Of a stretch of DNA of 20,744 bases, positions 1-20,539 are shown piece after piece. Origin of the DNA: a virus. Location of the stretch: positions 1 to 20,744 of IMG/VR virus record IMGVR_UViG_3300021165_002221; one strand, 5' to 3'. The notes beneath the pieces are model-generated. The model saw only the letters and a program-made list of their open reading frames with translations. It ran no database searches and was not told the DNA's origin. The position numbers and the translations under genes were made by a program. Every line of letters starts with the position of its first letter. Position 1 is the stretch's first letter.

Positions 1-49
1 CAATTGCCCACATATTCTGTTGTCCACGATCATTAGTCGTAACAGTCAT
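1..49 (-). CDS. Start of next gene, possibly a high-light-inducible (Hli) protein (partial)
   Basis: The ATG at 49-47 opens a frame that stays open to the window edge and encodes MTVTTNDRGQQNMWAI. It sits about 20 nt downstream of the expected start point of the promoter at 77-105, so it looks like the first gene of a new transcription unit. From memory, short cyanophage and cyanobacterial Hli proteins often begin with a Thr-rich stretch followed by a Gly-Gln-Asn and aromatic segment, which is why that family is suggested. The diagnostic transmembrane chlorophyll-binding helix (ExxNGRxAMxG) would lie outside the window, so function is only a guess. No clear Shine-Dalgarno sequence is seen before the ATG. 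Confidence 0.4.
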   Translation of the reverse strand, partial: MTVTTNDRGQQNMWAI

Positions 50-146: not shown

Positions 147-1466
147 TTACACTGGATGATATATTACATTTTCCGATTTATAAAGTTCTATAGTTTCTTC
201 AATGTAATCAATCATCTCATCAGTAATTACAGGTGAGCACCCAACAAAGAAAACATTGTCAAGAACTTTACAAGCGTTTGGATAGTTCTTTGCAGATTCT
301 AAATGCTTGTATGCTGGGTGCATTAGAATATTACCCGCAAAATAATTACGAGTCTGAATTTTATGACTTTCCAGATACTTCACTAAATGTGATTTGCCAT
401 ATTCATACACAATGGGAACACCAAACCAACTTGTTTCTGCTTCTGGGCGTTCATTAATTACACGAAGACCAAAAATATTCTCAAAAATTTTTTGAAGTCT
501 TTCTTTATTGTGTCTGCGTTTTGAATGAATATGATCAAACTTTTCAAGTTGAACAAGACCGATAGATCCTTGAAGATCTGCTGGTTTCAAATTATATCCA
601 ATCTGCCCAAACACATACTTATGATCCACCAGTTCATTATATCCTTCCAACCAGTAATCAAATCTCTTACCACAGACACCACACTCCAGGAGATTCTGTG
701 CTCCCACACAATAACAGTCACGACCCCACCAGGCAAAACTGCGGGCAATATCAACAATCTCTTTGATATTGGATGATACCATACCACCTTCAATGGCAGC
801 AATATGGTGAGCAGGATAGAAAGAGCAAGATGCTGCTACTGCGTGTTTTGTAAGATACTCACCTTTCCACTTACTACCAAGACTATCACAGTTATCAGCA
901 ATCAACTTAATATTATTCTTATCACAAATGTCAAGCAAACGATCATAGTCATAGGGATTGCCAAGAACAGGTGAGGAGAATACTGCCCGAGTTCTAGAAG
1001 TAATCTTTGCCTCCACTTGATTAAGATCCCAGTTCAGGTCATTATAATCGATATCAACAAAAACTGGTTTCAGATTGTTTTGGATAATAGGGTTAATTGT
1101 GGTTGGGAACCCGCAAACACACACAATAATCTCATCACCATCCTGCCATCCAAAATACTTCTTTAGAGCAGCAATCATCACAAGGTTGGCAGAACTACCA
1201 GAGTTCACCATCACAGAATGCTCAAACCCAAACCTCTTGGAGAAAGCACGTTCAAACTTATTAACTTCTTCACCCGAAGGAAGCCACTTACCACTCAACA
1301 AAGTGGTAATAGCAGCAGCGACTTCCTTCTCATCCCAATAAGGACCAGAATAATAGATATTACTTTTCCCCTTCTCATAGTTGTTGTTGCAGATATAAGG
1401 AAAAAGTTTTTCACCTTTATCTTGAAGGTTGGAAATGAGATTTAGAACCTCTTGATTTATTGACAT
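147..1466 (-). CDS. rfbH: RfbH/E1-type NDP-4-keto-6-deoxyhexose 3-dehydrase
   Basis: This 439-residue protein has the length and architecture of the PLP/PMP-dependent RfbH (DdhC, E1) family, which removes the 3-hydroxyl of a 4-keto-6-deoxy sugar nucleotide on the way to 3,6-dideoxyhexoses. The usual PLP-binding lysine is replaced by histidine in SFYPAHHI (His220/His221), the hallmark of dehydrases as opposed to aminotransferases. Cys193, Cys251, Cys253 and the cysteine before GKRF (Cys265, with Cys262 nearby) match the [2Fe-2S] ligands of this branch and separate it from the cluster-free ColD enzymes. The SGSSANL cofactor loop is at 89-95. It is the last gene of the operon and overlaps the SDR by 10 nt. 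Family CDP-glucose partners (RfbF, RfbG) are not visible, so its actual sugar nucleotide is unknown. Confidence 0.88.
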   Translation of the reverse strand: MSINQEVLNLISNLQDKGEKLFPYICNNNYEKGKSNIYYSGPYWDEKEVAAAITTLLSGKWLPSGEEVNKFERAFSKRFGFEHSVMVNSGSSANLVMIAALKKYFGWQDGDEIIVCVCGFPTTINPIIQNNLKPVFVDIDYNDLNWDLNQVEAKITSRTRAVFSSPVLGNPYDYDRLLDICDKNNIKLIADNCDSLGSKWKGEYLTKHAVAASCSFYPAHHIAAIEGGMVSSNIKEIVDIARSFAWWGRDCYCVGAQNLLECGVCGKRFDYWLEGYNELVDHKYVFGQIGYNLKPADLQGSIGLVQLEKFDHIHSKRRHNKERLQKIFENIFGLRVINERPEAETSWFGVPIVYEYGKSHLVKYLESHKIQTRNYFAGNILMHPAYKHLESAKNYPNACKVLDNVFFVGCSPVITDEMIDYIEETIELYKSENVIYHPV

Positions 1467-2275
1467 AATTCTCGAATGATTTGTTCATTACTAATTTGAC
1501 GAGTGAATCCAAGTTGATTCAATTTAGATGTATCCATCCAAAAGTCTTTTGCCTGGACAATTTTATGAAAGTCGGGCGCTTCTTTAGATTTGATACTTGA
1601 GTTGGATTTCAAATATTGCTTTGCAGTTTCAATTATAGCAGAGATAGGTGTTGGTTGTCCACTTCCGATATTATATACTTCATTAAGTTCACCCTCATTA
1701 CAAACTAATTCAATAGCACGACAAACGTCATCAATATGCATAATGTCTCTGATAGGTGTTCCGTCATCATACAAATAAACATCCTCATCTTTTTTGAGAA
1801 GGTCTATCATATAACTTAAGGCATTCTTTCTTGTAGAAACTTTACTGTCACCTTTACCCAATACATTACAAAGTCTTATAATTCTATAATTAACTTTAAA
1901 TGTTTTGCAAAAAGAAATTAAGAGATCTTCCGCTGCTTTTTTAGTGATGGAATAAAATCCTGTTGGATTGCAATGATAATCTTCTTTTGCTGGAAGATTA
2001 GTTTCCCCATAAACAAACCAAGAACTAATGAAATTAAAAGTAATATCTCTTTCCTTACAATGTTCTAAAACTTCACAAAGCACTCTCAAATTAGTATCAA
2101 CATCTAAAGTTATATCACTAAAAACATTGTAATTATCAACAGTGGAAATAAAATAAATTATTTCATTGAGAAGAGGAACTCTTTGTTGTCTTTGTTGAGG
2201 AAAAGCCTCATCAGAAAACATTTGACAATATCGACTTCCTATAAATCCAGTTGCTCCGTAAACTGAATACTTCAT
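1457..2275 (-). CDS. Extended SDR, NAD(P)-dependent nucleotide-sugar epimerase/dehydratase
   Basis: This is a 272-residue Rossmann-fold protein. The nucleotide-binding glycines are GATGFIG (7-13), the catalytic pair is Y108-x3-K112 in YSITK, and Ser residues at 84-85 (SSW) provide the third catalytic position. RDIMHIDDV (about 176-184) and the NIGSG segment (about 203-207) are typical of the family. The ATG at 2275 is chosen over an upstream TTG because it has GGAAGG at 2279-2284 and makes a 4-nt ATGA overlap with the preceding gene. The part between beta strands 1 and 4 is short for an epimerase. Lying directly before the RfbH-type gene, it may reduce or epimerise the dideoxy product, as abequose or paratose synthases do, but nothing in the sequence fixes the substrate. 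Confidence 0.82.
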   Translation of the reverse strand: MKYSVYGATGFIGSRYCQMFSDEAFPQQRQQRVPLLNEIIYFISTVDNYNVFSDITLDVDTNLRVLCEVLEHCKERDITFNFISSWFVYGETNLPAKEDYHCNPTGFYSITKKAAEDLLISFCKTFKVNYRIIRLCNVLGKGDSKVSTRKNALSYMIDLLKKDEDVYLYDDGTPIRDIMHIDDVCRAIELVCNEGELNEVYNIGSGQPTPISAIIETAKQYLKSNSSIKSKEAPDFHKIVQAKDFWMDTSKLNQLGFTRQISNEQIIRELCQ

Positions 2276-13050: not shown

Positions 13051-13418
13051 AAAAACTTTTTAATTTTTTCTTTTGTCAAGTCAGAGTAATTTAATGCTTT
13101 ATCATCTACAAAAACATCATAATGAATTTTTCCCATCACAAGATGATCATACTTCAATTCCCAAGCATTAAGTTGATTTATAGTTTTGGTATACAATTCA
13201 CTATAAATCAAAAGAATATTTCCATTGAATTGGGACATCCCTCTAGCAGTATATATTACAATTTTATTACCCTCCTCATAAAGATCATTGATTAGATCTA
13301 TAACTTCTAAATTAGGTTGGCAATGATCATACTTTTGTGGACCTAGATGCTCATATCCATTTGGACGATAACAAATAACATCATCTAAATCAAATGCGAT
13401 AGTTTTTAGTTTGCTCAT
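13047..13418 (-). CDS. Small HAD-superfamily phosphatase of capsule/LPS type
   Basis: This 123-residue HAD protein has motif I FDLDDV (Asp10, Asp12), motif II YTARG (Thr57), motif III in MGKIHYD (Lys97) and motif IV VDDKA (Asp105, Asp106). There is no sizeable cap domain, as in small phosphatases found in capsule clusters such as Campylobacter Cj1435. Members of that group remove phosphate from small sugar or amino-alcohol phosphates. The gene overlaps the upstream aldolase-like gene by 29 nt, the longest overlap in the window, and the next gene by 4 nt. Substrate unknown; a role in the same pathway as its immediate neighbours is inferred from this coupling. Confidence 0.8.
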   Translation of the reverse strand: MSKLKTIAFDLDDVICYRPNGYEHLGPQKYDHCQPNLEVIDLINDLYEEGNKIVIYTARGMSQFNGNILLIYSELYTKTINQLNAWELKYDHLVMGKIHYDVFVDDKALNYSDLTKEKIKKFL

Positions 13419-14388
13419 TTAACAATCCAAGTTTAGATTTAATTCTTCTCTGTATGAGTTTATCTGCTGTTGGGAAAGTAGATTTTATTTTAGTGATAAA
13501 TTCTTGATCAGATAAGACATAATGACAACAAGTCATTATTAACTGATCTTTAGATACTCGTTTAATATCTGGAATCCATTTTTTCCACTTGTTTGAATTA
13601 TAGCATATCTGATATAATTGTTCAAATTTTTCCTTATCCCCCTTACATTCTTCCAAATAATATTCAGATTCCACTTGCCCATACTCTGGTGCTATATTAA
13701 TTGCATCTAGTCCAATTTGAAATCTCAATTCAACATCAAAAGAATCAGTTAAATAATCACCATTATGTTCTTTACTCATTAAACCAAAATCTTTAACAAC
13801 TTTGATAAATTTATTCAATCTTTTATTATTAAAATTACCAGTATTTGTTCTTGTGGACAAATCAAGTCTTGTTCCAGACTGAACTACAGCATACTTAATT
13901 TGATTGAATTGATTTTGACTTAATCTATCTTTTAAGTAAGATAAAAACCAGTCAAGTTCCTCTGGTTCATATCTAAAAATTGCTTCTTCAGTTCCAACCT
14001 CATACATCATACTTGAGTTTTGATTCCAAAGATTTATCAGAATACTGCGAGTTTTTTCTGCTGCTTGCTCTACAGATTGAGATGCTCTAAAAGGATCAAT
14101 GTGAATTAAATCAAAATATTTACAATCCTCATCAAAAGAATTCATACCATCGTCAGGATCTTTTCCTTGCAATTCTCCACCATGATCTCTACACAAGAAA
14201 ATAGAAGAATTTTCATTCCGAACGTATTCTGAAAAATTTTTAGTATTCCAATCATTAACATATCCACCAGTATAATCAACTTGCCTTCTGGATGGAATAA
14301 GACCAATAGAATGCTGTTGACCGTGTTCAATTACACAATCAACAACATTTTTACTCATTGGTCCGATGTAATATTTTGGAAATATCAT
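13390..14388 (-). CDS. GatZ/KbaZ-like TIM-barrel (tagatose-bisphosphate aldolase superfamily) protein
   Basis: The 332-residue product has spaced motifs resembling the GatZ/KbaZ subunit of class II tagatose-1,6-bisphosphate aldolases: GLIPSRRQVDYTGGYVND (29-46) at the place of the SNQVNQFGGYT block, CRDHGG (66-71) for the GDHLGP motif, LIHIDPF (94-100), YEVGTEEA (129-136) for the conserved IGTE strand, and VVQSGTRLD (168-176) for VVQPG. The similarity is by memory of motif order, not by alignment, and the family's own catalytic role is uncertain, since GatZ needs a partner. It overlaps the fusion gene upstream by 4 nt and the HAD gene by 29 nt. It could form or split a phosphorylated three- to six-carbon precursor. 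Confidence 0.55.
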   Translation of the reverse strand: MIFPKYYIGPMSKNVVDCVIEHGQQHSIGLIPSRRQVDYTGGYVNDWNTKNFSEYVRNENSSIFLCRDHGGELQGKDPDDGMNSFDEDCKYFDLIHIDPFRASQSVEQAAEKTRSILINLWNQNSSMMYEVGTEEAIFRYEPEELDWFLSYLKDRLSQNQFNQIKYAVVQSGTRLDLSTRTNTGNFNNKRLNKFIKVVKDFGLMSKEHNGDYLTDSFDVELRFQIGLDAINIAPEYGQVESEYYLEECKGDKEKFEQLYQICYNSNKWKKWIPDIKRVSKDQLIMTCCHYVLSDQEFITKIKSTFPTADKLIQRRIKSKLGLLNEQTKNYRI

Positions 14389-15932
14389 TTAAGATTTAAG
14401 AAAAGATTGTATTTACCGAAATAATATAGGAACATATCAAGAGAGTGCTCGTGCAATGGAGACATATTAATCCAAATAATTGAAGTCAATATCTGAATCG
14501 CATCAAAACATATTCCCTCATTATAGCAAAAAGTTTTCAAATATTCTCTACATTCTAAATGAGAATTTTTAACGTAAACATCACAGGTGATTGTATCTTT
14601 ACAATCTAATGTATAAAGATTATTTGAAAGAACTTGATGATTTAAAGTAAGATTATGATTTAACTTTGCCAAATCATAATTCATATCTCCAGCATCAATA
14701 CTTTCATTGAAATCTTGTCTCCAATCAATAAGTGTGAATTGATTATCTTTAATTAAAATATTATCAAGAATAAAATCTCCGTGAAAACCAGATGGTTGCT
14801 TTCCTATCAGATAATCAAAATCAATTTCATCGATTAATTCTTTAATTGGAGGCACATAAATTCCATTGATAATATTTGAAGTGTCTTCTAAATTATACTT
14901 ATCTAAAAATTTTTCAATTCTTTTAAGGGTTTTATCTCTATAAAAAGATAATGCATTCTTTTTATATAACGGATCCTCTTTTTTCACCCAAAGATTTTCT
15001 TTTACCCAAGTAAGTAGATTTGTAAATTTAATAAGATTTATAGAATCTGCCAATAAATCTGCTTGAACAAATTCATACTTATAAAAATTTTCTGTGCTAT
15101 CCAAAATCTTTGGAACTAACCCATCTAAATTTTTTGTTCTTGCAACTCTATCAGAACATACTTTCTTGTTATAGAAAAATTTAATTACAAAGTCTTCAAA
15201 AACAAAAATGTTTTCATCTTCTTTATCAAGAACATGAACTGTTCCTTTGATATGTGATCTCGTTCTTCTCAAAGAATCAATATTGCCAATATCATACCAA
15301 TCACTAACTTCAACCACAGAAAAATCATTCATCTTACGAATGATATGACAATCACTTAAATCATTAGTATTTACAGTTTGGAGAACTGATCTACAAGTAT
15401 CCCAAAAAACTTTATACTGTTGAATACCAGAAACACCCACATAAACAAAATCAAAATTTTGTTCTCCTTTTTCGTTGATTGATGCGATTTTTCCATTGAC
15501 ACAATTAATAGTTCTATATGATTGACTATTATTCCCATCACCACCAATAGACCAGTTAGTTGAAAAATCTACATTACCAATGTAATTTTTTGGAAGAATT
15601 GTATCACAAGCGTGAAAAATAAAAGGACACTGCAAGTATTCTTCGCATAAAGAAATTGAATACAATAAACTACTTCCATCTCCCATATAATTATCAACTT
15701 CCACAAACTGAATACTACGATCAGAATGTGCAAGATTTAAGTATTGTTTTACGTGAGATCCATAGTGTCCAAGAGTTACAACAAACTCCACATCTTGTGG
15801 ATATGATTCAATAATATGAGAAATAGCAGGTTTATCACCAACTCGAACCAAACTTTTATTTGTAAACTTTGTTAGATTTCCTAACCTAGATCCCAAACCA
15901 CTGCAGGTGATTAATACTTTATACTCTACCAT
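14385..15932 (-). CDS. Nucleotidyltransferase fused to APH/choline-kinase-like domain
   Basis: This 515-residue protein has two parts. Residues 1 to about 230 form a sugar/choline-phosphate nucleotidyltransferase: LITCSGLGSRL (7-17), NKSLVRVGDKP (25-35), Asp110 in HACDTIL, and WYDIGN (212-217). Residues about 245-510 form an aminoglycoside/choline-kinase-type phosphotransferase with the catalytic loop GFHGDFILDN (His384, Asp386, Asn391) and the metal-binding LIDW (Asp403). The order matches LicC (CTP:phosphocholine cytidylyltransferase) plus LicA (choline kinase) in one chain, so one polypeptide could phosphorylate and then nucleotide-activate a small alcohol or sugar. Substrate identity is not visible. 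The gene is notably AT-rich, overlaps the cupin gene by 14 nt and the aldolase-like gene by 4 nt. Confidence 0.82.
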   Translation of the reverse strand: MVEYKVLITCSGLGSRLGNLTKFTNKSLVRVGDKPAISHIIESYPQDVEFVVTLGHYGSHVKQYLNLAHSDRSIQFVEVDNYMGDGSSLLYSISLCEEYLQCPFIFHACDTILPKNYIGNVDFSTNWSIGGDGNNSQSYRTINCVNGKIASINEKGEQNFDFVYVGVSGIQQYKVFWDTCRSVLQTVNTNDLSDCHIIRKMNDFSVVEVSDWYDIGNIDSLRRTRSHIKGTVHVLDKEDENIFVFEDFVIKFFYNKKVCSDRVARTKNLDGLVPKILDSTENFYKYEFVQADLLADSINLIKFTNLLTWVKENLWVKKEDPLYKKNALSFYRDKTLKRIEKFLDKYNLEDTSNIINGIYVPPIKELIDEIDFDYLIGKQPSGFHGDFILDNILIKDNQFTLIDWRQDFNESIDAGDMNYDLAKLNHNLTLNHQVLSNNLYTLDCKDTITCDVYVKNSHLECREYLKTFCYNEGICFDAIQILTSIIWINMSPLHEHSLDMFLYYFGKYNLFLNLK

Positions 15933-16266: not shown

Positions 16267-17188
16267 TTTTTTTATACCATTCGTAAGTTTTTTCAATTCC
16301 CTCACGAAGAGAGATCTTGGGTTCCCATCCAAGTGCTTTGATTCGGTCTACATTCATCACCTTGCGGGGAGTTCCATTGGGTTTTGTTGTATCCCAGTTA
16401 ATATCACGTTTATAACCAACAACATCAGCAATTGTTTCTGCAAGTTGTTTGATGGTTACATCTTCTCCAGTTCCGACGTTGATATGTCCTGCTTCTTCAT
16501 ATTTCTCCATACAGATATAACACGCTTCGGCAAGATCATCAACGTGCAGAAACTCACGCATTGCAGAACCATCACCCCAAAGTTTAACCTCCCAATACTT
16601 ACTATGATCCAGTGCAGCATGGAACTTTGCAATCATTGCAGGAAGAACATGTGAGGTTTCCAGATCAAAGTTATCATTTTGACCATAAAGATTCGTAGGC
16701 ATCAAAGAAATAGCATTAAACCCATACTGTTGGCGATATGCCTGACACATCATAATACCAGCAATCTTTGCAATCGCATAAGCATCATTAGTTGGTTCCA
16801 GAGGACCAGTCATCAACTGATCTTCTGTGATTGGTTGAGTCGCAAACTTTGGATAGATGCAAGAGGAACCAAGAAACAGCAGTTTCTTTACACCAAAGTT
16901 ATAAGACTGCTGAATAAGATTAGTTTGGATTTGCAGATTCTCAGTCAAAAACTCTGCTTTATAGTTGTTGTTTGCCATAATGCCACCAACCTTAGCAGCA
17001 GCAACAAAAACATATTCAGGTTCTTCTGAACAAAAATATCTTTCAGTTTCATCTTGATTTGTAAAATCTACATCATCACGAGTGCCTTTGATGATGTTAG
17101 TATAACCTTTACTCTCAAGATTTCTTACGATTGCAGATCCAACCATTCCGTTGGCACCCGCAACTAATACTCTAGAATCACTGTCCAT
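16259..17188 (-). CDS. fcl: GDP-L-fucose synthase (GDP-4-keto-6-deoxymannose epimerase/reductase)
   Basis: This 309-residue extended SDR has all catalytic residues of the family: NADP-binding GANGMVG (11-17), GSSCIYP with Ser108 and Cys110, Tyr137 and Lys141 in YAIAK, and His180 in TSHVLP. These lie one position from the Escherichia coli numbering. It performs two epimerisations and an NADPH reduction to give GDP-L-fucose. The ATG at 17188 is preferred over an upstream TTG because it aligns with the normal N terminus and gives an 11-nt overlap with gmd. Together with gmd it completes de novo GDP-fucose synthesis for the four fucosyltransferases downstream. Its composition is GC-richer than that of most transferase genes here. 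Confidence 0.95.
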
Positions 17189-18182
17189 AAATGCACATAT
17201 CCTCAACAAGTTGTTTAAACGAAGTCTTAGGTTCCCAACCTAGTTTCTCCTTTGCCTTTGTGGCATCACCTAATAAAGTCTCTACTTCAGCAGGTCTGAA
17301 ATATTTAGGGTTGACTTTGATGACCACTCTGCCAGTATTCTTATCAATGCCAACTTCATCCAATCCTTCACCTTCCCATACGATCTTCATTCCAAAGTAT
17401 GGTGCTGCTTCTTCTACAAATTGTTTTACAGAATACTGAACACCAGTAGCAATTACAAAATCATCTGGTTCATCTTGCTGAAGCATTAACCACATTGCCT
17501 CAACAAAATCTTTAGCGTGTCCCCAATCACGCTTTGCGTTTAGATTACCAAGTTCTAAAACATCTTGCAGTCCAACAGATATTTTGGAAAGTGCCCGAGT
17601 AATCTTACGAGTTACAAATGTTTCACCACGACGGGGAGATTCGTGATTGAAAAGAATACCCGTGCAAGCATACATTCCATATGCTTCACGATAGTTCTTT
17701 GTGATCCAATATCCATAAAGCTTCGCTACACCATAAGGAGAGCGGGGATAAAAAGGAGTAGTTTCACTTTGAGGAGTTTCCTGAACAAGACCATAAAGTT
17801 CACTTGTAGACGCCTGATAGATGCGGACACGATCCTCCATACCCAGGAGACGCACTGCCTCAAGAATACGTAGAGTTCCCACACCATCCACATCAGCAGT
17901 GTATTCAGGCATCTCAAAGGATACCTTGACGTGACTTTGAGCACCAAGATTATAAATTTCATCTGGTTGGACTTTTTGTATAACTCTTACTATATTAGTT
18001 GAGTCTGTTAAGTCTCCGTAATGTAAGTTAATATTTTGATACAAATGATCAATACGATCTGTATTGATTAAAGAAGATCGACGAATGATGCCATGAACTT
18101 CGTATCCTTTTTCCAAAAGAAGTTCGGCAAGGTATGATCCATCTTGTCCAGTAATTCCTGTAATCAGAGCAACTTTTACCAT
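17178..18182 (-). CDS. gmd: GDP-mannose 4,6-dehydratase
   Basis: The 334-residue product begins with [20 protein letters not shown], the diagnostic Gmd nucleotide-binding block. The catalytic STSELYG (Thr126, Glu128) and Tyr150/Lys154 in SPYGVAK are present, followed by the substrate-binding [17 protein letters not shown] region (178-194). It converts GDP-D-mannose to GDP-4-keto-6-deoxymannose. The length is slightly below the roughly 345-370 residues of many bacterial Gmd proteins but nothing essential is missing. GAGGA at 18192-18196 precedes the ATG after a 4-nt gap from the upstream gene. It is directly followed by fcl. The GDP-4-keto sugar is also a possible branch point for the RfbH-type dehydrase at the end of the operon. 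Confidence 0.96.
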
Positions 18183-18186
18183 TAAT

Positions 18187-19128
18187 TCATTTCCTCAATT
18201 GTTCTAAAATTTTCTGGGTGAATTCATATTCATAACCTTTACCATCCTCTATACCCATACCCCAAGGATTTTTATTACCATACATTGTATTATATAAAGT
18301 ATGAATTGAAAATCCATTGTGGATATAATACATTTTCTTCCCAGAATTTTTACAATAAATGTTCATGGGAACTTCATCGTAAGCATCATACCTAGCTTCT
18401 TGATTTGATCTAATCCAATCGTCGGTCTTAATTGCAAATGTGTTAATTGTAAAATAGGGACGATTAAATGGATTGATCTTGTAATCATATTTTTGATTAA
18501 TTCTATCAAGATTATCTAAAATATAATCATTCAGAATCATTTGAGCTCCAGCACAAATTCTGATTGGATGAATACCTTTAAATGGAGTTGGAAGACGTCC
18601 AACTTTATAATAAAACTCTTCACGATTCCATTTATCAAATCTAATAGGTGTATAATCAACTCCCCACAAACCATTTGGCATTGGTGGATTGGTATACTCT
18701 CTATAAATGTTTTCTTTAATTTGTTTGTCTGTTACGAAATTTTCAACAAAAAGATCTACGAGTGGAATATTATTTGAAAGAAGAGGTGACATTAAAAACG
18801 ACTCTTCACTATCAAGAAAAGAAATATTTTCAATCAAATAATCCCAAATATAATTGTTAATAAAACAATCCTCATCCAATTTGACAGAATACTTTGATCC
18901 TGTATTAATTGCATAATTGACTTTACCAAGATAATTATTATCGTGGGGAAAATTAATAACTTCTATTTCTATCCCATCAATAAAGTCCTGCCAGTTATGT
19001 TGGTGTGTTGCAAGGACATGAATTTTTATCTTCTTCTTATTTTCATCTTTAATTTTATTCAAATAAAATGAAGTTACTTCCCAATAATACGTGGGTCTAT
19101 CGTGTGCAAAATAATTTATAGAAATCAT
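18187..19128 (-). CDS. Putative GT-A-fold glycosyltransferase, unclassified
   Basis: This 313-residue protein has a GT-A-like N-terminal alternation of strands and helices and an acidic motif [18 protein letters not shown] at 81-98 in the position expected for DxD. A central [16 protein letters not shown] segment and the [10 protein letters not shown] block near 290-299 could belong to the acceptor-binding face. I do not recognise a specific family. It sits between the dTDP-glucose dehydratase (4-nt ATGA overlap) and gmd (4-nt gap), apart from the main block of transferases. It may act first on the pathway's own glycan or use the dTDP-sugar, which is inference only. Confidence 0.55.
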
Positions 19129-20051
19129 AATAGTTTATTTGAATACCAATCGATTGTTTTTTGTAACCCATAATCAAGGGAAAACATTGGTGACCAAAAA
19201 AGATTATTTCGAATTTTACAGATACTTGTAGAGTATCTCCTATCGTGCCCTGGTCGGTCTTTTACATATTCTACCATACTTTCAGGTTTGTTCATAATCT
19301 TAAGAATTTTTTTAACCAAGTCAATATTTGTAACCTCACACTCGCCACCAATATTATACTTCTCTCCAATCACACCATTTTTCCACACCTTAATTAATGC
19401 AGTACAATGATCTTGAACATATAACCAATCACGAATCTGCATACCATCACCATACACAGGGATCTTTTTTCCAGAAAGAATATTTAAGATTGTCTGTGGA
19501 ATTAGTTTTTCCTTATATTGTCTTGGACCATAATTGTTAGAGCAATTGGTGATGTTTACAGGCAATCCATAAGTATTATGGTATGCCATTACAAAGTGAT
19601 CACTTGCTGCCTTAGATGCTGAATAAGGATTTCTGGGATTGTAACTTGTACGTTCACTAAAAGATCCATCCTCAATAGATCCATAAACTTCATCGGTAGA
19701 AATATGAATAAACTTATCAACCTCGTGTTTTAGTGCAAGGTCAAGAAGACTGACTGTACCTACAATGTTACTATGAATAAATGGGGAACAATCTTTAATT
19801 GAATTATCAACGTGACTTTCTGCAGCAAAGTGAAAGACCGTTTTAATCTTGTGTCTTTTGAAGATCATATCGCAAGCAGACTTGGAGGCAATATCAATTG
19901 TATAAAATTTTATATTATCTGGAATGTATCTCCAATTTGCTGCATAGGTTAATTTATCAATACAAACAATTTCTTCATCAGTCATAGTAACTAAATGATG
20001 AAGAAAGTTACTCCCAATAAAACCAGCACCACCAGTAACTAGAATACTCAT
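19125..20051 (-). CDS. rfbB: dTDP-glucose 4,6-dehydratase (RmlB/RfbB family)
   Basis: The 308-residue extended SDR has GGAGFIG (7-13), an acidic ID at the end of beta 2 for NAD binding (31-32), the family-diagnostic HISTDEVYG (Thr119, Asp120, Glu121), and Tyr143/Lys147 in YSASKAASD. NNYGPRQ (172-178) and the RDWLYVQDH motif (207-215) complete the pattern. It makes dTDP-4-keto-6-deoxyglucose. It is shorter than the usual 320-360 residues, mainly in the C-terminal substrate domain. No RmlA, RmlC or RmlD is in the window, so the product must go to host enzymes or to a different branch such as the SDR and RfbH-type pair. It overlaps both neighbours by 4 nt. Confidence 0.9.
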   Translation of the reverse strand: MSILVTGGAGFIGSNFLHHLVTMTDEEIVCIDKLTYAANWRYIPDNIKFYTIDIASKSACDMIFKRHKIKTVFHFAAESHVDNSIKDCSPFIHSNIVGTVSLLDLALKHEVDKFIHISTDEVYGSIEDGSFSERTSYNPRNPYSASKAASDHFVMAYHNTYGLPVNITNCSNNYGPRQYKEKLIPQTILNILSGKKIPVYGDGMQIRDWLYVQDHCTALIKVWKNGVIGEKYNIGGECEVTNIDLVKKILKIMNKPESMVEYVKDRPGHDRRYSTSICKIRNNLFWSPMFSLDYGLQKTIDWYSNKLL

Positions 20052-20539
20052 TTTTGACCGTACTTTTCTAGAAGTTCTGGAGAATATTGAAGGACATCTT
20101 TAATATTTTTTTCTTCTCTTTTTGCTCTCTCAAGTTCATAAACTCGATTTCTAAGTTCAGTAGTAGAAAACTGATGCCTTCTCAGATGATAGTAAATCTC
20201 AATATCGTTATCAATACAGTATTGCTTTCCCGTAAAATCAATGTCCTTATATTCCTCACTCAAGAATCGAATATGAAAGGTTTGAGTCTTGATTAAATTT
20301 AAAAGATCTGCTTCTGTATCATAGACAAGAATCTCATCCACATATTTACACGCTTGCACCTGAGCATATCTCTCATAAATTGATTGCACTGGTTTGTTCT
20401 TTAATCCAGGTCGATCAATTGTTGGATCCACCTGAAGTGCTACCTTTAAGTAGTCGCACATTTCTTTTTCCATTTTGAGCATTGTAACGTGTCCAGCATG
20501 AAAAAGATCGAAGCAACTACAATTAAAACCAATTTTCAT
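20048..20539 (-). CDS. Cytidylyltransferase-like protein (TagD/GCT type)
   Basis: This 163-residue protein is the first gene of the operon. It has the nucleotidyltransferase signature CFDLFHAGHVTML (9-21, with HAGH at 14-17), YERYAQVQACKYVDEI (55-70), and FSTTELRNRV (124-133), matching the ISTT motif of glycerol-3-phosphate cytidylyltransferases. Core length fits TagD, with about 30 extra charged residues at the C terminus. TagD relatives make CDP-glycerol, while related enzymes act on ethanolamine phosphate or heptose phosphate. Here it could supply a CDP-alcohol for glycan decoration, alongside the GDPD-like and LicC/LicA-like genes. No obvious Shine-Dalgarno sequence precedes the ATG, and the predicted leader is only about 12 nt. 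Confidence 0.82.
   Translation of the reverse strand: MKIGFNCSCFDLFHAGHVTMLKMEKEMCDYLKVALQVDPTIDRPGLKNKPVQSIYERYAQVQACKYVDEILVYDTEADLLNLIKTQTFHIRFLSEEYKDIDFTGKQYCIDNDIEIYYHLRRHQFSTTELRNRVYELERAKREEKNIKDVLQYSPELLEKYGQK

Follow-up and report, generated by a model that had tools for sequence, protein, structure and literature searches.

In nucleotide-linked form, 3,6-dideoxyhexoses of the O-antigen type are known with CDP or GDP as the carrier. The described enzymes closest to the one analysed here are: i) E1 (DdhC, AscC or RfbH; structure 3bcx, family model NF011936), which acts on CDP-4-keto-6-deoxyglucose; ii) SpnQ of spinosyn biosynthesis, a [2Fe-2S] 3-dehydratase of a dTDP-sugar, which works with ferredoxin or flavodoxin reductase pairs and transaminates when given PLP and glutamate without a reductase (PMC8987622); and iii) ColD (2gms), the 3-dehydrase of GDP-4-keto-6-deoxymannose, which has no iron-sulfur cluster and regenerates its PMP with glutamate (PMC8987622). 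The closest genomic setting is that of the LPS gene clusters of T4-like cyanophages (P-SSM2, S-SSM7, S-SM2), which are large, are sited near hli genes and tRNAs, and are perhaps functional, perhaps stuffer DNA (PMC3037559).

The window, that is, the whole stretch of 20,744 nucleotides that was analysed, has the same 20,744 bases as its IMG/VR virus record. It contains 25 genes, all on one strand and mostly overlapping or a few bases apart. Its DNA matches are to Synechococcus T4-like phages. The left edge cuts a high-light-inducible (hli) gene, a cyanophage hallmark. The right edge matches phages S-SM2 and S-SRM01, and the S-SM2 counterpart adjoins a tRNA array. The phage DNA matches, the two edges and the precedent of the known clusters (PMC3037559) thus make the window a phage glycan cluster, and it is a cyanophage fragment, not a bacterial one. 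The genes needed for the argument are the following.

1-49, minus strand: 5' end of the hli gene, truncated at the window edge; petF is next after hli in the closest relative
147-1466, minus strand: predicted E1/RfbH-type PMP- and [2Fe-2S]-dependent nucleotide-sugar 3-dehydrase of a phage clade (open reading frame; 3bcx; Foldseek E1; NF011936)
1457-2275, minus strand: SDR-family nucleotide-sugar reductase/epimerase (Epimerase PF01370; GxxGxxG, S and YxxxK motifs)
17178-18182, minus strand: Gmd, GDP-mannose 4,6-dehydratase (TIGR01472, 573.9 bits over a cut-off of 415)
19125-20051, minus strand: RmlB-type dTDP-glucose 4,6-dehydratase (TIGR01181, 421.6 bits over a cut-off of 365; PDB 6bi4, 1g1a)
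20048-20539, minus strand: TagD/RfaE-like small nucleotidyltransferase, paired with RmlB (TIGR00125, TIGR02199; PDB cytidylyltransferases)

The 3-dehydrase reading frame is intact (439 aa, ATG start, minus strand), and the plus strand across 147-1466 has many stops. The protein has the DegT/DnrJ/EryC1-type aspartate aminotransferase fold (PF01041, 253 bits; Foldseek E1). Its best solved relative by sequence is the E1 dehydrase 3bcx (252 bits, E 8.5e-74), followed by ColD 2gms (173 bits). An AlphaFold model (pLDDT 88.6, low confidence in loop 256-264), made from an alignment without three rows from named phage records, gives the same order, with E1 3bcx as the top Foldseek match (TM 0.85/0.89) and ColD behind. 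The score against NF011936, the RfbH equivalog model for the CDP-sugar enzyme, is 374.3 bits, under the curated cut-off of 423. The diagnostic codons, all placed by alignment to E1, are these.

672-683, minus strand: Cys262 and Cys265, the latter the predicted fourth cluster ligand
708-716, minus strand: Cys251 and Cys253, predicted cluster ligands 2 and 3
807-809, minus strand: His220, in place of the PLP-binding lysine (88 of 88 aligned rows)
888-890, minus strand: Cys193, predicted cluster ligand 1

His220 falls on His220 of E1, a position identified via the H220K mutant 3bb8. Cys193, Cys251 and Cys253 match E1 cysteines one to one, and Cys265 aligns with the last E1 cysteine past a 4-residue insertion. 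His220 and Cys193 are invariant in the 88 aligned proteins; Cys251, Cys253 and Cys265 are found in 87 of them and fall in a gap in the other one, and Cys262 is found in 67. The loop of the phage clade, SFAWWGRDCYCVGxQNLLxCGxCGKRFD, is 4 residues longer than the canonical SFRDWGRDCYCxPGxDNTCGKRF and usually has one cysteine more. Thus the His220 replacement and the [2Fe-2S] cysteines, from which the original prediction had read a true E1-type iron-sulfur dehydrase, are borne out, with E1 also closest in sequence and predicted fold. By its residues, the protein is identified as a phage-borne E1/SpnQ-type nucleotide-sugar 3-dehydrase. It is predicted to share with E1 the fold, His220, the four cluster cysteines and the PMP site, although the alignment shows 35-39% identity with canonical RfbH. 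With ColD it would share the fold, the catalytic histidine and the C3 deoxygenation, but the four iron-sulfur cysteines set it apart.

A pattern scan for relatives, from which the best 80 of 539 viral loci were kept, and a bacterial genome scan place this protein in a largely viral family. Among the matches listed, the closest isolates are Synechococcus phages RN05-S, RB11-B, S-B43, S-H68 and S-B05 (68% identity), whereas P-SSM2, S-SSM7 and S-SM2 are absent from these matches. The bacterial scan gave just three sequences that reached 50% identity; the others were at 41% or less. In a quick tree whose root is unsure, all phage sequences fall into one group with support 100. Its sister is a Nitrospirales sequence, and canonical RfbH and the actinobacterial RfbH homologues lie outside it; SpnQ itself is not in the tree. 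A literature search found no paper on a phage RfbH-type enzyme.

Nested within the phage group are one Nitrosomonadaceae, one Prochlorococcus and one further Cyanobiaceae copy. These rare bacterial copies come from a MAG (L094), a single cell (L095) and a genome (L366), respectively, and their position inside the phage diversity suggests that phage-type RfbH moved from phages into bacteria. The Nitrosomonadaceae MAG carries a canonical RfbF-RfbG-RfbH operon, whose RfbH scores 750 bits. A separate contig of this MAG has an SDR and phage-type RfbH pair (366 bits). Their coexistence suggests that the two types differ in function; provided that the MAG is clean, the phage-type pair would not stand in for the CDP enzyme.

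The usual neighbour of the phage gene is an SDR gene. In the window, the SDR gene lies directly upstream and overlaps the 3-dehydrase start. Of 84 viral loci, 79 have a member of one SDR family together with RfbH, usually touching the RfbH start; in 50 it is directly upstream, and in 24 one gene lies between. The SDR at 1457-2275 is the probable C4-ketoreductase partner of the 3-dehydrase. In a 642-kb uncultured phage, a 56% identical 3-dehydrase (L005:9998-11296) has no neighbouring SDR of the usual family; the gene after it encodes an unusual protein of 472 aa.

Unlike canonical E1/RfbH, the phage enzyme has no RfbF, RfbG or DdhD partner. Profile searches found none of the three in the window, and they recovered the dTDP- and GDP-sugar 4,6-dehydratases there, as had been predicted. 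Neither RfbF nor RfbG occurs in the 84 RfbH viral loci. None of the 33 whole RfbH-bearing virus records, among them a complete 206-kb phage, has RfbG, and none of 15 virus records has RfbF over the cut-off; the best RfbG score in an earlier record set was 110 bits against a cut-off of 278. A search of relatives and of whole phage records for RfbF and RfbG genes lying just outside the window likewise found neither.

The 4,6-dehydratase linked to the viral gene is of the RmlB type. The RmlB of the window, which lies ~18 kb from RfbH, aligns over its full length, with small gaps alone, with solved dTDP-glucose 4,6-dehydratases (6bi4, 1g1a and others). RmlB is over the cut-off in 18 of the 33 whole records, often contiguous with RfbH, and is missing from RfbH-bearing records of 175, 107 and 642 kb. 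The arrangements in viral loci are [cupin]-RmlB-SDR-RfbH, TagD-RmlB-RmlC-SDR-(gene)-RfbH and TagD-SDR-RfbH; a count by eye gives about 14 loci with contiguous RmlB-SDR-RfbH and about 18 with TagD-RmlB-RmlC-SDR-(usually one gene)-RfbH. As a control, RfbH was found in 13 of 38 RmlB-anchored viral loci vs 1 of 67 Gmd-anchored ones (Fisher p 4e-6), the contigs not being independent and some being near-copies. Since the RmlB cassette often occurs where no RfbH is seen, the linkage may partly reflect shared residence in glycan clusters. For both reasons the association is support, not proof. TagD, as a stand-in for RfbF, has the cytidylyltransferase fold, but it pairs with RmlB also in phages without RfbH. 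The TagD/RfaE-like-RmlB-RmlC-SDR cassette is seen in many cyanophages with or without RfbH (L026, L028, L036, L195 and others), and RmlB and SDR occur together in 60 RmlB-anchored loci.

Since RmlB is the linked type, a dTDP substrate is favoured, and the RmlB at 19125-20051 is the probable supplier of the 3-dehydrase substrate. The original prediction had the characterised members using CDP-4-keto-6-deoxyglucose and proposed a substrate switch to the Gmd or RmlB product. The first statement overlooked SpnQ, which uses a dTDP-sugar (PMC8987622). Of the switch, the dTDP half is favoured by the RmlB linkage and the GDP half is not, Gmd being weakly linked to RfbH. The phage enzyme is most likely an E1/SpnQ-family variant that makes an NDP-3,6-dideoxyhexose, with dTDP as the most likely carrier. 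SpnQ would be alike in its [2Fe-2S] cluster, its dTDP-sugar and its ferredoxin/flavodoxin route, the phage substrate being read from the genomic linkage to RmlB; it differs in its substrate, a 2,6-dideoxy sugar, and in serving an antibiotic pathway.

The main reading, to which we give a probability of about 0.5, is that a phage E1/SpnQ-type 3-dehydrase acts on an RmlB-made dTDP-sugar with electrons from ferredoxin, followed by SDR reduction and transfer to a glycan. We infer which nucleotide (dTDP) and which electron donor are used, and likewise the stereochemistry of the sugar and its role in the glycan. RmlB, either that of the window or that of the host, would convert dTDP-glucose to dTDP-4-keto-6-deoxyglucose. 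PMP on the 3-dehydrase would form a Schiff base with the 4-keto group, His220 would take a proton and the C3 hydroxyl would depart. The [2Fe-2S] cluster would then hand over two electrons, received one by one from a plant-type ferredoxin instead of a dedicated DdhD; the ferredoxin may be the phage PetF, or that of the host with the host ferredoxin-NADP reductase. The product of the overlapping SDR gene would reduce the 4-keto group to give a dTDP-3,6-dideoxyhexose, which a glycosyltransferase of the cluster would attach to the host surface glycan. Such an iron-sulfur route to a dTDP-3,6-dideoxyhexose, if true, would fill a gap between E1 and SpnQ.

A DdhD-like reductase had been said to be both needed and absent from the window. 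The absence was confirmed by profile searches and extends to virus records, the flavoprotein reductase domain PF00175 being found in none of 15; the need does not follow, since SpnQ works with other reductase pairs (PMC8987622). Ferredoxin, by contrast with PF00175, is encoded in 5 of the 15 records. In the closest relative of the window, its sister (L006), RfbH is followed downstream by hli at +99, ferredoxin (petF) at +403 and then a plastocyanin-like gene. The hli start of the window is at the same distance from RfbH, after which the contig ends; thus the window probably stops about 300 bases short of a ferredoxin gene. Cyanophages in general have the hli-petF neighbourhood, so its proximity to RfbH does not in itself show a link and may be chance. 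Ferredoxin is abundant in the photosynthetic host. The phage 3-dehydrase would require no dedicated reductase and would probably use ferredoxin as donor.

A ferredoxin-dependent phage enzyme is already known in PebS (PMC13198022), and if ferredoxin is the donor here too, a cyanophage glycan gene would likewise be tied to photosynthesis. A bolder and distinctly more tentative version holds that the phage genes form a virus-specific clade of iron-sulfur 3-dehydrases converting dTDP-4-keto-6-deoxyglucose to dTDP-3,6-dideoxyhexoses, light-driven via the ferredoxin encoded two genes downstream. If that were true, phage glycan remodelling would be directly coupled to host photosynthetic electron flow. 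The conservation of the gene pair and the cysteine set over dozens of viral contigs argues for function of the LPS clusters, and the 3-dehydrase offers a testable function within these long-puzzling clusters.

The main rival is that the enzyme is a CDP-4-keto-6-deoxyglucose 3-dehydrase like E1 and draws its CDP-sugar from the RfbF and RfbG of the infected host. This is rather unlikely, but host supply is possible given that RfbG is over the cut-off in 52 of 151 Cyanobiaceae genomes; with a third of the host-family genomes carrying RfbG, a genome check for RfbF and RfbG is not decisive. Furthermore, CDP-specific E1 is the nearest solved enzyme in sequence and fold. Against it, two thirds of the host-family genomes are without RfbG, RfbG is in no RfbH-bearing virus record tested while RmlB is frequent, and bacterial CDP-linked RfbH is a separate branch of the tree. 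An RmlB-type enzyme is over the cut-off in 101 of the 151 genomes. Phage-type RfbH itself is found in two Cyanobiaceae genomes, both with RmlB: one (G104) carries RfbF and RfbG on another contig, which favours the host-supplied CDP-sugar, and the other (G013), a 1.3-Mb single-cell genome that may be incomplete, has no RfbG. In four Cyanobiaceae loci (L367, L369, L371, L372), RfbF and RfbG adjoin aminotransferases or epimerases, not RfbH, and there the CDP-sugar probably feeds other products; a fifth (L370) is the exception, with an RfbH-like gene after RfbF-RfbG.

It is improbable that the 3-dehydrase uses the Gmd product, GDP-4-keto-6-deoxymannose, and follows an iron-sulfur route to GDP-colitose or another GDP-3,6-dideoxyhexose. 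Gmd is present in the window, and ColD, which uses this very sugar, is the second-nearest structure. Nevertheless, Gmd occurs in 7 of the 84 RfbH loci, and anchoring on Gmd gave little association with RfbH; inside the Gmd-anchored loci, the RmlB/RfbH comparison rests on one RfbH-bearing locus. The known GDP-specific enzyme, ColD, is also without a cluster. Gmd pairs with Fcl in 62 of the 67 Gmd-anchored loci, and GT10 and GT11 fucosyltransferase-type genes are present in the cluster of the window; Gmd and Fcl are thus already explained by GDP-fucose for these transferases, and the Gmd of the window most likely serves GDP-fucose, not the 3-dehydrase. Least probable is that the protein mainly transaminates a 4-keto sugar, as SpnQ is able to do without a reductase and as the PHROGs label of the viral family ("aminotransferase") would have it, given that His220 replaces the aminotransferase lysine, the cluster cysteines are kept across the clade and a photosynthetic host is rich in ferredoxin.

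Other sugar genes accompany these loci. Gmd lies directly after RfbH, a point in favour of the GDP-sugar, in a 175-kb virus record without RmlB (L063:9192-14549). There, SDR-RfbH-Gmd is followed by an Fcl-like gene and, before it, one for a probable sugar C-methyltransferase, and the substrate may be a different one. Among the 67 Gmd-anchored viral loci of 8 kb or more (L275-L352), 28 combine Gmd with a distant DegT-family enzyme that resembles perosamine synthase or ColD, a separate phage 4-keto-sugar branch. In the window, at 13390-14388 and 14385-15932, a 332-aa protein without a Pfam or PHROG match neighbours a nucleotidyltransferase fused to an APH-like kinase domain and a HAD-like protein, and this set looks like another sugar-activation route.
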